A stretch of DNA of 33,349 nt from Propionicimonas sp. Lineage in GTDB: Bacteria > Actinomycetota > Actinomycetes > Propionibacteriales > Propionibacteriaceae. The position numbers were made by a program, and so were the translations under genes. Positions 1 through 5,198 of the stretch are shown in pieces. The DNA lies in the NCBI GenBank assembly GCA_030158185.1, contig JAOATP010000145.1, positions 1 to 33,349 of the forward strand. The letters are read 5' to 3'. The notes under the pieces were generated by a model. It had not been told where the DNA came from. It was given only the letters and a program-made list of their open reading frames with translations, and did no database searches. Within the stretch, counting starts at the first letter, position 1; each line of letters opens with the position of its first letter.

Positions 1-139
1 GCGCCTCAGAGTGCCAACCAACGATGCCGTTAGACCCATAGACGGGGAACTCGCCATCATCTCGCTGCCCGGCGGGGAGGCTCTTTCCATACTTGAGCTC
101 ACACACCTCACCCAAGTCAACAATCGGCCAGCTCGTCAC
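1..139 (-). CDS. hsdS: Type I restriction system specificity subunit HsdS (N-terminal fragment, cut by window edge)
   Basis: This gene is not in the ORF track. Translating the minus strand from a GTG at 139 gives about 46 residues containing LGEVCELKYGKSLP and FPVYGSNGIVGWH. This is the usual opening of an HsdS target-recognition domain. HsdS selects the DNA sequence that the type I complex methylates or cleaves. The GTG overlaps the TGA of hsdM (GTGA, 136-139), so the two are translationally coupled, as expected for subunits of one complex. The rest of the gene, and probably hsdR, lies beyond the left edge. The recognition sequence cannot be predicted from this fragment. Confidence 0.88.
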   Translation of the reverse strand, partial: MTSWPIVDLGEVCELKYGKSLPAGQRDDGEFPVYGSNGIVGWHSEA

Positions 140-1668
140 GCCAGCATCGCCTTCAGCTCGACCAGGCCGTGCCGGATCTCGTCCTCCAGTTGCTGCAGGT
201 CAGCAATGATCTCGGCGGGCGCCCGGTGCCCCACGTCCTCGTGCACGACCTCCTTGTAGCGGTTGAGAGAGAGGTCGTATCCCGGCGCCTCGATCTCGGC
301 CTTGGGCACGCAGAAGCTCTGCTCGGTGCGAGCCCGGGTGAGTTCGGAGGCTTCGCTAGGCCCTTCGTGACGCTCCGCTCGTTCCTCACGGAGCTCCTCA
401 GGGACCGAATGGTGGCCGGGCTTCGTCAGGCTCAGCCAGCGTTCCAGGAGGTCTGGCAGGTCGTTCGATTCAATGGGGTTGCGCTTGTCGTCGAGGGAGA
501 AACCGTCGGCCTGCACGTCGTAGAACCAGACGTGGTCGGTGCCTCCGGAGTTGGTCTTGGTGAACAGCAGGATCGCTGTCGACACCCCGGCGTAGGGGCG
601 GAAGACACCCGAGGGCAGCTTGATCACGGCGTCGAGCTTCTGGTCCTCGACCAGAACCTTCCTCAGTGCCTTGTGCGCGTTCGAGGAGCCGAACAGCACC
701 CCGTCCGGCACGATGACGGCCGCCCGTCCGCCGGGCTTGAGCATGCGCACGAACTGGGCGAGGAACAACAACTCCGTCTTCTTGGTCTTCACCACCTTCT
801 GCAGCTGCTTGGAGGTGGCCTCGAAGTCGAGCGAGCCGGCGAACGGCGGGTTGGCCAGCACCAGCGTGTAGCGGTCCTCATCGGTGTCGCCGGCCTCGGA
901 GAGCGAGTCCCGGTAGCTGATGTCGGGGGCCTCCACGCCGTGCAGCATCATGTTCATGCTGCCGATCCGCAGCATGGTGGAGTCGAAGTCGTAGCCGTGG
1001 AACATCGAGTTGTGGAAGTGGCTGCGCTGGGCGGCGTCCGTCATCACCGAAGGGTGATGCTCGCGCAGGTACTCACTGGCCGCGACAAGGAAGCCTGCGG
1101 TGCCGCACGCCGGGTCGCAGATCTCGTCGGTGGGGCCGGGCGCCATCAGGTCGACCATCAGCTTGATGATGTGCCGCGGGGTGCGGAACTGGCCGTTCTG
1201 GCCGGCACTGGCGATCTTGCCGAGCATGTACTCGTACAGGTCGCCGTTGGTGTCCCGGTCGGCCATCGGGATGTCGTTGACCATGTCGACCACCCGCGAC
1301 AGCAGCTGCGCGTTCGGGATGGTGAACCGGGCGTCCTTCATGTGGTGGGCGTAGGTGGAACCCACGCCGCCCAGGTCACGCAGGAACGGGAACACGTGGT
1401 CGCGGACCAGTTCGAGCATCACGTCCGGGTCCTGCTCGCGGAACTGGGACCAGCGCAGGAGCTGCTCACCGTCGTGGAAGATCGGGGACTCGATCGGGCG
1501 TCCGAGCCGGTTGGCCTTCTTCTCGGCCAGCGTCTGGAGCTCGTCGAGCCGCCGGATGAACAGCAGGTAGGTGATCTGCTCGATGACCTCCAGCGGGTTG
1601 CTGATGCCGCCCGACCAGAACGCGTCCCAGACCCGATCGACCTTGCCCTTGAGCGCTCCTGTGATCAC
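136..1668 (-). CDS. hsdM: Type I restriction-modification DNA methyltransferase subunit HsdM
   Basis: This is the 510-residue adenine-N6 DNA methyltransferase subunit of a type I restriction-modification system. The start MITGALKGKVDRVWDAFWSG matches the normal family start. An HsdM_N helical domain covers about residues 5-140. GQFRTPRHI (about 159-167) leads into the methyltransferase fold. Motif I (AdoMet binding) is DPACGTAGFL at about 185-194 and the catalytic motif IV is NPPF at about 273-276. The end, YDLSLNRYKEV, is the conserved tail that contacts HsdS. The odd part is at about residues 418-445. There the usual short linker before RTEQSF is lengthened, and 16 codons of it (VPEELREERAERHEGP) are encoded by a copy of a dispersed palindromic repeat, in frame. 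The catalytic motifs are intact, so the protein is probably functional. Confidence 0.95.
   Translation of the reverse strand: MITGALKGKVDRVWDAFWSGGISNPLEVIEQITYLLFIRRLDELQTLAEKKANRLGRPIESPIFHDGEQLLRWSQFREQDPDVMLELVRDHVFPFLRDLGGVGSTYAHHMKDARFTIPNAQLLSRVVDMVNDIPMADRDTNGDLYEYMLGKIASAGQNGQFRTPRHIIKLMVDLMAPGPTDEICDPACGTAGFLVAASEYLREHHPSVMTDAAQRSHFHNSMFHGYDFDSTMLRIGSMNMMLHGVEAPDISYRDSLSEAGDTDEDRYTLVLANPPFAGSLDFEATSKQLQKVVKTKKTELLFLAQFVRMLKPGGRAAVIVPDGVLFGSSNAHKALRKVLVEDQKLDAVIKLPSGVFRPYAGVSTAILLFTKTNSGGTDHVWFYDVQADGFSLDDKRNPIESNDLPDLLERWLSLTKPGHHSVPEELREERAERHEGPSEASELTRARTEQSFCVPKAEIEAPGYDLSLNRYKEVVHEDVGHRAPAEIIADLQQLEDEIRHGLVELKAMLA
359..406 (-). repeat. Dispersed palindromic repeat, copy 1 (inside hsdM)
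   Basis: This is a 48-nt element. On the minus strand it starts GGTCCCTGAGGAG and ends CGTCACGAAGGGCC. Between these ends is an inner stem CTCCG/CGGAG around an 11-nt loop. The same end sequences occur at 13505-13554 with a different inner stem, and a half copy occurs at 5199-5222. It is 16 codons long, so it keeps the hsdM frame. Confidence 0.7.
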
Positions 1669-2849: not shown

Positions 2850-3647
2850 TCAGGCGTAGCTCCGCGCGACCGACAGCGCCTGGGCGCCGTAGCCGCCGCC
2901 GAACAGCAGGGCGTGGAACATGAGCGGCGAAAGTGCGTGCAGCGACAGTCGGTCGCGCCAGCCGTCGGCAAGGGGCGAGACCTCGTCGTAGGCGGCGTAG
3001 ACCTCGGACAGGTGGGCGAGTCCGAACAGGGCGAGCATGCCGAGGTCGGATTCCGCGTGGTCGCCGCGGGCGAGCGGGTCGATGAGCGCGGCACCGGTGG
3101 CTTCCCCGGTCCACAGCACATTGCCCGCCCAGAGGTCGCCGTGGACGCGAGCCACCGCTCCTTCGACGAGAGCAGGCTGGGGCACGTCGAACTCACCGGC
3201 GCGCAGGCGGTCGCAGAGTCGGTCGTAGGTGCGGGCCTCCGCCGCGTCGATCAGGCCGCCGTCGCGCAGGCGCCGGGTGAACACGGCGATGCGCCAGTCG
3301 GCGTAGAAACGTCCCCAGGTCGCCGGCGCGTCGGCGGCGTCGAGGATGAACGGCTGGCGGGAACGCCCGATGGTGTCACCGCCGGGCCAGTCCTCGGGCG
3401 GGCAGCCGAACCAGCCGGCGCCGGCGGCGTGCGTCCGGGTCAGTGAGGCACCGAAGCGCCGCGCGGATTCCCGCGTCGCGGCAACCTCCGCGACGTACTC
3501 GAGCTCGAGCCGGGTCGGGGCGAGCCCGAGCACCCGCACGATGCGGGTGCCGCCGGCCTCCTCCGCCTCGGCGAGCCAGCGCAACCCGGCAACCTCCTGG
3601 TCGAGGCGCTCCCCGCTGGGGGCGGTCTTCACGAAGATCCCGGGCAC
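2850..3647 (-). CDS. Fructosamine kinase / ketosamine-3-kinase family protein
   Basis: The product has 265 residues and a small kinase fold related to aminoglycoside phosphotransferases. The family phosphorylates sugars attached to amino groups, which leads to deglycation of proteins or amino acids. Visible features are IFVKTAPSGERLDQEVAGLRWL (ATP-binding lysine and adjacent glutamate), RFGASLTRTHAAG, the catalytic loop HGDLWAGN (about 169-176), and IDPLARGDHAESDLGML, which holds the metal-binding Asp and the family's downstream acidic motif. The GTG at 3647 gives the usual family N-terminus. The track ORF extends 40 residues further, through the box-rich intergenic region. The gene lies downstream of fic on the same strand with 94 bp between them. 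That gap carries a pair of the same boxes found in front of fic, so the two may be co-regulated. Confidence 0.85.
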   Translation of the reverse strand: MPGIFVKTAPSGERLDQEVAGLRWLAEAEEAGGTRIVRVLGLAPTRLELEYVAEVAATRESARRFGASLTRTHAAGAGWFGCPPEDWPGGDTIGRSRQPFILDAADAPATWGRFYADWRIAVFTRRLRDGGLIDAAEARTYDRLCDRLRAGEFDVPQPALVEGAVARVHGDLWAGNVLWTGEATGAALIDPLARGDHAESDLGMLALFGLAHLSEVYAAYDEVSPLADGWRDRLSLHALSPLMFHALLFGGGYGAQALSVARSYA

Positions 3648-3691
3648 GCGGCCACCGTAGCCGCCGGCGCTGCGCCGACCGAGTGACCTCG

Positions 3692-3734
3692 AACTCCAAG
3701 CCAACTGCAACCTCGGTTCTGGAATTGGAGTTGG
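3692..3734. promoter_or_regulatory. AACTCCAA/TTGGAGTT box pair between fic and the kinase gene
   Basis: AACTCCAA (3692-3699) and TTGGAGTT (3725-3732) are perfect inverted repeats. Inside them, CCAACTGCAA pairs with TTGGAGTTGG with one mismatch. The pair lies just after the fic stop codon and upstream of the kinase start. It matches the larger cluster in front of fic. An operator is the simplest reading; a transcription terminator is the alternative. Confidence 0.55.
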
Positions 3735-3741
3735 CCGGTGG

Positions 3742-5070
3742 TCAGCGGCCGAGTGCCTCCCGCGCATCAGGTGCCGGCCGCCAGACGTAGGCCCTGCCCC
3801 GCTTCTGCCGAAGCAGGACGCCGCTCTCGGCCAGACCGATCAGATCGTGGCGCGCCGTCTCCGTGGTCACATGGTGGCTGTTGGCGTGCGACACCACCGA
3901 GAACTCCGCGCTGGGGTTGGAGAGCGCAAGCTCGATGACGGCCAGTTGTCGATGGTTGAAGTCCACGTGCTTGCCACTCAGAATCGACTTCACGGCCTGC
4001 CGCTCGCGGACCTTCTCCCGCAGATAGTCCTCAAGGTCGTTGAACGCGCGATCCAGGACCTGCAGGTGGTAGATGAAGAAGTAGGTGAGGTCAGATTCAT
4101 ACTCAGTATTCAGATAGGAATGGGCATATTTCGTCTGAGCATTCTTGAGGATTGTCGAAATTGTGACGAACTCCGTTAACCAGAGGCCCTGGTGCAGCAT
4201 GCTCCAGTAGAAGAGGGTTCTCGCGAGGCGGCCGTTGCCGTCAACGAAGTAATGGTCGTGCCCCACCATGAAGTGGACAGCGATGGCCCGCAGGACGGGG
4301 AAGAGCCACGGTCCTTCATCTGCGCTCGCGTTTGCAAAGTCGCACAGTTCCTGGAGTCGCTCCTCCAGCTGTTCGGCCGGCGGCGGCGAGTGGAGCACCT
4401 CCCCCTCGAACGTACCGACATGCACGCGCTCGTCCTGCGGCCGCTGGATCCTTCCGCCGTCGTCGGGCTCGTCGAGCGTGCCAAGGGTGACGAGACTGTG
4501 AAGCTCGCGAACAATGGCTGGCGTCAATGACGCTTCTCGAATCTCGAGAATGAACATCATCGCCTGATAGTTGTTCCAGATCATCCGTTCGCTCTTGTCC
4601 TGCGGGTCACGGCCGCTGCGCAGCATTTCCTTGGCGACCTTGCGCGTGGTTGCCGCACCCTCGAGCTGACTGGAAGTGATGGACTCCTCCATCAACGACC
4701 GAACCACATAGGTGTCCCTTGTAGCGGGATTTGTGACCGGTTCGGCCATCCCGATGTTGCCGCCAGCCTTGCTGGATACCTGGCTGGCGAGCCTGAGCAC
4801 CTCGTCGGGTAGTGCGTAGCTGAAGAAGCTGCCCTGAAGGTCCCGGAGCGGCAGTGCACGCCACTGACTCCTCCGCTGGATGCTCGTTGCGGCCCACCAC
4901 TGGAGAGGCGTCAACCCCTCCGGTGGCGTGTGGAAGCGGAACTTCTCCCACGGCAGGTACGCATCGCTCCCCACCTTGACGCTTGCCACGGCTGCTGCGA
5001 ACTGGGTGATCGAACCATCGAAGACCTCGAGGTAGTCGAACGCGACCGGTGGCTTGGCGGGAATCTTCAT
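3742..5070 (-). CDS. Fic family protein (class II, inhibitory motif N-terminal) with C-terminal winged helix
   Basis: The product has 442 residues. Fic domains usually transfer AMP or another phosphate-containing group to hydroxyl side chains of target proteins. The core motif is HYFVDGNGRLAR (about 273-284). It has Tyr where the consensus has Pro, but the catalytic His and the Asp, Asn, Gly and Arg residues are kept. An autoinhibitory motif SSQLEG (about 133-138; pattern S/T-x3-E-G/N) precedes the Fic domain, which makes it class II. A Fic N-terminal domain covers about residues 30-110. The C-terminus from about 375 looks like a winged helix (RQLAVIELALSN, VTTETARHDLIGLAESGVLL), so it may bind DNA. 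Box clusters on both sides suggest autoregulation. Base composition appears lower in GC than that of its neighbours, which hints at acquisition by transfer. The target is unknown. Confidence 0.92.
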   Translation of the reverse strand: MKIPAKPPVAFDYLEVFDGSITQFAAAVASVKVGSDAYLPWEKFRFHTPPEGLTPLQWWAATSIQRRSQWRALPLRDLQGSFFSYALPDEVLRLASQVSSKAGGNIGMAEPVTNPATRDTYVVRSLMEESITSSQLEGAATTRKVAKEMLRSGRDPQDKSERMIWNNYQAMMFILEIREASLTPAIVRELHSLVTLGTLDEPDDGGRIQRPQDERVHVGTFEGEVLHSPPPAEQLEERLQELCDFANASADEGPWLFPVLRAIAVHFMVGHDHYFVDGNGRLARTLFYWSMLHQGLWLTEFVTISTILKNAQTKYAHSYLNTEYESDLTYFFIYHLQVLDRAFNDLEDYLREKVRERQAVKSILSGKHVDFNHRQLAVIELALSNPSAEFSVVSHANSHHVTTETARHDLIGLAESGVLLRQKRGRAYVWRPAPDAREALGR

Positions 5071-5081
5071 GTCCTCATCCT

Positions 5082-5181
5082 AACTCCAAATGCAATCGCA
5101 ACTTGGAGTTGGAGTTGGACGGTCCGATGAGCCATCTCCAAGCAACTACAAGAGGTGGGTTGGACTTGGAGTTGAGTTGGA
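5082..5181. promoter_or_regulatory. Cluster of TTGGAGTTG-type boxes upstream of fic
   Basis: In the 110 bp ahead of the fic start I see AACTCCAA (5082-5089), TTGGAGTTGGAGTTGG (5103-5118), CTCCAAGCAACT (5137-5148) and TTGGACTTGGAGTTGAGTTGGA (5160-5181). They form both inverted and direct repeats of one short word. The first box is only 12 bp from the ATG, so binding there would cover the promoter or start region. The winged helix of Fic itself is the obvious candidate binder, but this is inference. Confidence 0.65.
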
Positions 5182-5198
5182 CCGGACATCGCCACCCG

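Follow-up and report, generated by a model that had tools for sequence, protein, structure and literature searches.

Introduction

Among the described proteins closest to the one considered here is CccR of Yersinia pseudotuberculosis (PDB 7XUX), a class II Fic whose C-terminal HTH binds inverted repeats in its own promoter and which represses itself (PMC9755527). CccR is a secreted T6SS effector of 380 aa with a single operator, AGATAATCAT-N26-ATGATAATCT, in which the repeats stand 36 bp apart start to start, and neither a downstream operator nor diversified arrays are described for it (PMC9755527). The SoFic proteins of Shewanella (3EQX) and E. coli (EcSofic) function as an anti-phage single-gene defence (PMC12249575). 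For CbFic2 of Coxiella burnetii (8CIL) DNA binding is reported to drive dimerisation and (de)AMPylation (PMC10628234); the work used random-sequence DNA only, and a specific operator of CbFic2 is not known (PMC10628234).

The locus at issue lies within the window, the whole stretch of 33,349 bases that was analysed, and consists of a fic gene with clusters of one short box at both of its ends. Like CccR it has a class II Fic with a C-terminal HTH, the promoter of its fic carries inverted repeats, and 7xux is among the fold matches of its product. With SoFic it shares a Fic AMPylase, an N-terminal inhibitory motif and a C-terminal winged-helix-like domain, the top fold matches being 3zcn/3eqx, but identity in the fold alignment is about 16% and the short gap downstream of the window fic holds no AS1-like gene. 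The likeness to CbFic2 is that of a class II Fic with a C-terminal winged HTH. More generally, type II toxin-antitoxin operons (HigBA, GraTA) resemble it in autorepression via inverted repeats at their own promoter, and lac-type systems in having auxiliary operators which raise repression; in contrast to both, the window fic would combine enzyme and predicted repressor in one polypeptide, and the second predicted operator lies behind the gene.

The features of the locus, with window coordinates and strand, are as follows.

2850..3647, minus strand: fructosamine-kinase family gene, downstream of fic (Pfam Fructosamin_kin, E=3e-24)
3654-3659: -10-like TACGGT of the kinase gene
3692..3735, minus strand: downstream 'bookend' array (predicted operator), which repeats the upstream array in direct orientation
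3742..5070, minus strand: fic, encoding a 442-aa class II Fic AMP-transferase that ends in a winged-helix domain (Pfam Fic, E=7e-13)
3775..3954, minus strand: C-terminal winged-helix domain, residues 373-432 (AF2 secondary structure)
3826..3864, minus strand: predicted recognition helix, residues 403-415, with T403 and E404 as specificity residues and H408 a weaker one
4228..4254, minus strand: Fic catalytic motif HYFVDGNGR; H273, F275 and D277-R281 invariant in 53 homologs
4657..4677, minus strand: inhibitory motif TSSQLEG, class II type; S133, S134, L136, E137 and G138 invariant in 53 homologs
5077..5082, minus strand: -10-like TAGGAT in a leaderless-like position just ahead of the ATG, touching a box
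5080..5123, minus strand: predicted proximal operator, with AACTCCAA at 5082 and TTGGAGTT at 5103 and 5109
5134..5182, minus strand: predicted distal operator cluster, with ATCTCCAA, AACTACAA, AAGTCCAA and AACTCCAA
5260..6120, plus strand: divergent alpha/beta-hydrolase gene (Pfam Abhydrolase_3, E=6e-34)
3692 (+), 3725 (-), 5082 (+), 5103 (-), 5109 (-), 5166 (-): exact copies of AACTCCAA/TTGGAGTT

Boxes around fic in the window

An earlier note on this DNA had drawn attention to boxes occurring as inverted and direct repeats both upstream of fic and between fic and the kinase gene, and this is confirmed by count: AACTCCAA/TTGGAGTT has six exact copies in the 33,349 bases against 0.15 expected, none of the shuffles reached six, and all six copies fall within the two gaps flanking fic, where one-mismatch copies at 3703, 5134, 5144 and 5160 join the clusters. 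Elsewhere in the genome, which is 80% complete, the AACTCCAA...TTGGAGTT pair was not found. As fic is read from the minus strand, its upstream side is the stretch 5080-5182, where the core inverted pair of the predicted proximal operator is TCCAAG (5102-5107) and TTTGGA (5085-5090), 17 bp start to start. The geometry of the CccR operator, 10-bp repeats with N26 between them, is thus not that of the window fic, which has the 17-bp spacing plus extra boxes at 11 bp. The other cluster begins 7 bp past the fic stop codon and is upstream of the fructosamine-kinase gene.

A strict sigma-70 scan found no consensus sigma-70 promoter in the window. Besides the TAGGAT here, a TANNNT that precedes the start codon by a few bases and lies beside the last box is present in L004, L010, L011, L013, L014, L015 and L016 (L numbers being our handles for homologous fic loci), and in L093 a TTGACA-16-TAGTAT lies inside the array. 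In the downstream array of the window the -10 position reads TCGAGG, versus TAGGAT upstream.

The Fic protein

The window protein has both the Fic motif HxFx(D/E)GN(G/K)R, as HYFVDGNGR, and the class II N-terminal inhibitory motif (S/T)xxxE(G/N), within an invariant S-S-x-L-E-G. Its AlphaFold model, built with 53 sequences, has a mean pLDDT of 92 and agrees with the earlier note that the Fic carries a C-terminal winged helix, the elements being helices 373-384, 392-399 and 403-415 and strands 419-424 and 427-432. The nearest solved folds are SoFic structures, a mycobacterial Fic, CbFic2 and CccR, and the best PDB match by sequence is CccR. The PADLOC SoFic model matches 14/14 of the homologs in the first alignment, with E=3e-33 for the window protein, which scores 27.8 bits on the NCBIfam SoFic equivalog NF046030 where the cut-off is 550; because it is so far under that cut-off it is named SoFic-like here and not SoFic.

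Upstream arrays in homologs

Homologs were drawn from the same order, from a genome collection (80 loci, many phyla) and from the class, leaving 98 loci after removal of duplicates. Many of the genomes are draft or metagenome-assembled, and start codons were set via a conserved N-terminal motif. The array score was the best repeated 7-mer in the 115 bases that precede the start codon, set against 40 dinucleotide shuffles, with 196 windows from the same loci as controls. All 40 shuffles were beaten by the upstream regions of 57 of the 98 Fic-winged-helix loci and by 8 of the 196 control windows (Fisher 2e-25); the remaining 41 upstream regions do not beat all shuffles, and nevertheless boxes are visible in several of them. 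The check proposed in the earlier note, to look beside homologous fic genes in other genomes for the boxes, the lack of which was to refute it, therefore found arrays beside most of them, with differing words.

It is the repeated word that varies among homologs, and the geometry that is constant. AACTCCAA is common to the window fic, L004, L010 and L015; other words are TACTAAT..ATTAGTA in L093, ATTGGTA in L092, AAGTCAA in L103, TTTACAG in L011, GCTGCTA in L101 and TTGGGAG in L045. When the cores are aligned in register, 58 of 73 loci have inverted cores at a start-to-start distance of 17 bp; inverted spacings of 28 (=17+11) occur in 30 loci, of 7 in 17 and of 6 in 10, with a handful each for the rest. 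Counted without any word list, exact inverted 6-mers lie 17 bp apart in 65 of the 98 loci, 16 bp apart in 12 and 18 bp apart in 14, and boxes on the same strand are spaced by 11 bp in 52/98 where 4.3 are expected. Among loci fetched later the exact 17-bp pair is found in 7 of 10.

More distant fic genes show a single strong palindrome (e.g. TTAACTCAATTTTCGTCAAAATTGAGTTAA) by the start codon, as in L202 on a Klebsiella plasmid and in the viral-contig genes L163, L166-L169 and L172, and so self-operators may reach past the Fic subfamily studied. The most distant Fics from viral contigs and plasmids (L162-L177, L202-L206), several with upstream palindromes, were left unscored, their helix falling mostly outside the regular expression.

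A correspondence of helix residues and box bases

For the 73 loci with a usable box model, about 396 protein columns were ranked as predictors of each variable box base; the other columns of the protein have the same phylogeny, and so the ranking serves as its own control. Of these ~396 the column of T403 ranks first for box base 8, and that of E404 first for box bases 4, 6 and 7, the two residues with which the predicted recognition helix opens; the H408 column is fourth for base 4, and for base 10 no recognition-helix column is among the best predictors. Tyr at 403 and T at base 8 occur together in 33 loci and are both missing from 37, with 2 and 1 exceptions (Fisher 3e-17), and each of the two states changes eight times on a tree made from the Fic part without the winged helix. 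Read as residues 403/404 to word, YQ goes with TTAGTA, YD with TTGGTA and YA with TTGATA, and when 403 is not Tyr, Q at 404 goes mostly with TTAGCA, A with TTGACA and E mostly with TTGGAG or TTGAAG. The association of E at the second code position with T at base 6 is weak (Fisher 0.007).

The code was derived post hoc, being found and tested mostly on one set of loci. In ten loci fetched afterwards, a number too small for significance alone, base 8 was predicted correctly in eight, the misses being L182 (Phe) and L183 (His), and an independent-pairs test on well-supported branches has too few pairs for significance. Given arrays beside most homologous fic genes, and recognition-helix residues as the best predictors of box bases, there is strong comparative evidence that the boxes are read by the C-terminal winged helix of Fic itself. 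That Fic may bind them had been suggested in the earlier note, and is borne out as far as comparison goes.

Arrays behind the gene

In 12 actinobacterial loci the word of the upstream array returns immediately behind the stop codon, with L012 as a 13th; the fic of L012 has a downstream array only, its 5' end and upstream array apparently having been lost or replaced. Downstream copies also appear in L185, L198, L201 and L207. Word sharing is no more than background within the fic ORF, and likewise 400 bases farther on behind the gene. Relative to the upstream array the downstream one is repeated in direct orientation, save that L050 and L207 fit at least equally well as inverted, and the -10 sequence of the downstream array is changed in the window gene, L004, L010 and L198. 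L003 and L004, with 64% protein identity and different neighbours, have downstream-specific sequence in common, and the window array has its ortholog in L004. In L013, L014, L198 and L201 a box AACTGTAA holds the stop codon and supplies the last leucine codon too, and it does so at the same place even though the compared pairs are 55-58% identical (L201, being truncated, was left out of these). The state of having a downstream array changes 7 times on the tree, where the lowest of 200 shuffles gives ten.

Empty sites in the recF and FN3K regions have no array, which makes the downstream array part of the gene unit rather than of the site; insertion of fic into an array already in place is not supported on this ground. 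An integron-type attC reading of the downstream repeat (GCCAAC...GTTGGC, by eye) was also dropped, as the word is found upstream as well and covaries with the protein. The downstream array is missing from most homologs, and thus would not be needed for basic autorepression. L207, a distant Fic (36% identity) on a gut phage scaffold (MT840011), has ATTCTTGCAAAT...ATTTGCAAGAAT on both sides of 1501-2649, and counts by its sequence as a further bookended case, separate from and independent of the main set.

Proposed mechanism and its rivals

Autorepression through the winged helix is the best reading of these comparisons, and we hold it very probable that the Fic AMP-transferase, self-inhibited and joined to a winged helix in one protein, represses its own gene via the upstream arrays and uses the downstream array as an auxiliary operator. 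The arrays, their conservation and geometry and the covariation of recognition helix and box are observed; binding, repression, enzymatic activity and what the downstream array does are inferred. The winged helix would bind AACTCCAA/TTGGAGTT half-sites, probably as dimers on the inverted pairs about 17 bp apart, and further boxes at a distance of 11 bp, or one helical turn, would join in the binding. Protein on the upstream arrays, which overlap the promoter, would then hold fic expression low. The preferred reading of the downstream array, which has usually lost the promoter elements, is that of an auxiliary operator of Fic that most likely deepens repression; two ways for this, a bridging of the gene ends or a protein roadblock, are together rated somewhat above an even chance. 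DNA binding might also set the enzyme activity of Fic, by analogy with what is reported for CbFic2. A wider scheme, in which this is a widespread defence-like Fic family whose protein at the operators of both ends loops the gene shut and stays inactive, loss of the DNA-bound state (e.g. on phage attack) leads to expression and AMPylation, and words diversify against cross-talk of coexisting copies, is doubtful.

For the boxes as such the rival would be another host regulator, with fic merely one of its targets. Nothing direct speaks for this, other than that many intergenic inverted repeats are host-regulator sites, and it is largely refuted and very improbable indeed, as the box pair has no further copy in the 80%-complete genome and the word differs by homolog and is best predicted by residues of the Fic recognition helix. 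That covariation of word and winged helix also counts against the two arrays being ends of a mobile cassette, sites of recombination or transposition on which Fic or a host enzyme would act. Direct repeats flanking one gene would fit such ends, as would the coming and going of arrays with fic, seen at the empty recF and FN3K sites, and the patchy occurrence of fic, in 15 of 199 genomes of the family and at differing sites; however Pfam shows no nuclease or recombinase domain in the window Fic, most homologs have the upstream array alone, promoter elements lie inside the arrays, and neither a target-site duplication nor a solo array was seen, and so cassette ends seem a far-fetched reading.

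For the downstream array alone two further explanations have to be weighed. It could be a functionless remnant of a tandem duplication of array and fic, which would suit a copy of the upstream array in direct orientation, often devoid of a -10, whose state changes 7 times on the tree; but remnants should decay, whereas the arrays of L003 and L004 keep their downstream-specific features and the stop-codon box keeps its place in L013, L014, L198 and L201, and we see only a small chance for it. Alternatively the array could regulate the neighbouring gene, here the fructosamine kinase, with Fic repressing both genes. In the window it ends about 33 bp before the -10-like TACGGT of the kinase, and the next gene is co-directional in six further loci, where it encodes DciA, a PRiA4 ORF3-like protein, leucyl-tRNA synthetase, MsrAB, an FAD-binding protein and, in L198, an SMR-like protein. 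Nevertheless the genes behind downstream arrays all differ, and three are convergent (an M20 peptidase in L004, an aminotransferase in L011, an ABC transporter in L014), so that in these loci there is no neighbour promoter to be controlled. Among the homolog flanks examined neither FN3K nor the divergent hydrolase stands beside any other fic, and the closest FN3K relatives in the genus are found, as read from the sequence, behind an amylase-like gene without fic or boxes. Control of the neighbour is therefore unlikely, and the coupling of Fic to a deglycating kinase put forward in the earlier note is rejected, FN3K not being a conserved partner and downstream arrays facing unrelated or convergent genes.

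Relation to the described systems

The earlier note had regarded a Fic that is its own repressor, coupled to a deglycating kinase, as a new regulatory pairing; as a principle, a self-repressing Fic-HTH was known from CccR (PMC9755527). What is new, as judged from sequence comparison, is the family-wide occurrence of arrays with a constant geometry, the code that relates residues to bases, and the bookend arrays, for none of which a description was found in the open-licence PubMed Central papers searched. Two residues of Fic often predict the DNA word before its gene, from Actinomycetota to Planctomycetota and Gammaproteobacteria, and this covariation suggests that self-repression, demonstrated so far for one Yersinia protein, is a general control of SoFic-like enzymes. 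It would help to explain how a toxic system of one gene can be held silent with no antitoxin of its own beside it. Operator copies downstream which, in several homologs, hold the stop codon are likewise an arrangement with no description found in the literature searched.

Surroundings of the fic loci

At the contig start, about 2 kb from fic, the window contains a complete type I restriction-modification methylase gene (HsdM, 136-1668, minus strand), the remainder of its operon being cut off by the contig end. The gap 3' of recF (L013, L014, L118, L122, L130, L133) resembles an insertion hot-spot in the genus: two genomes carry fic cassettes there, others a small DNA-binding-like gene and still others short repeats.
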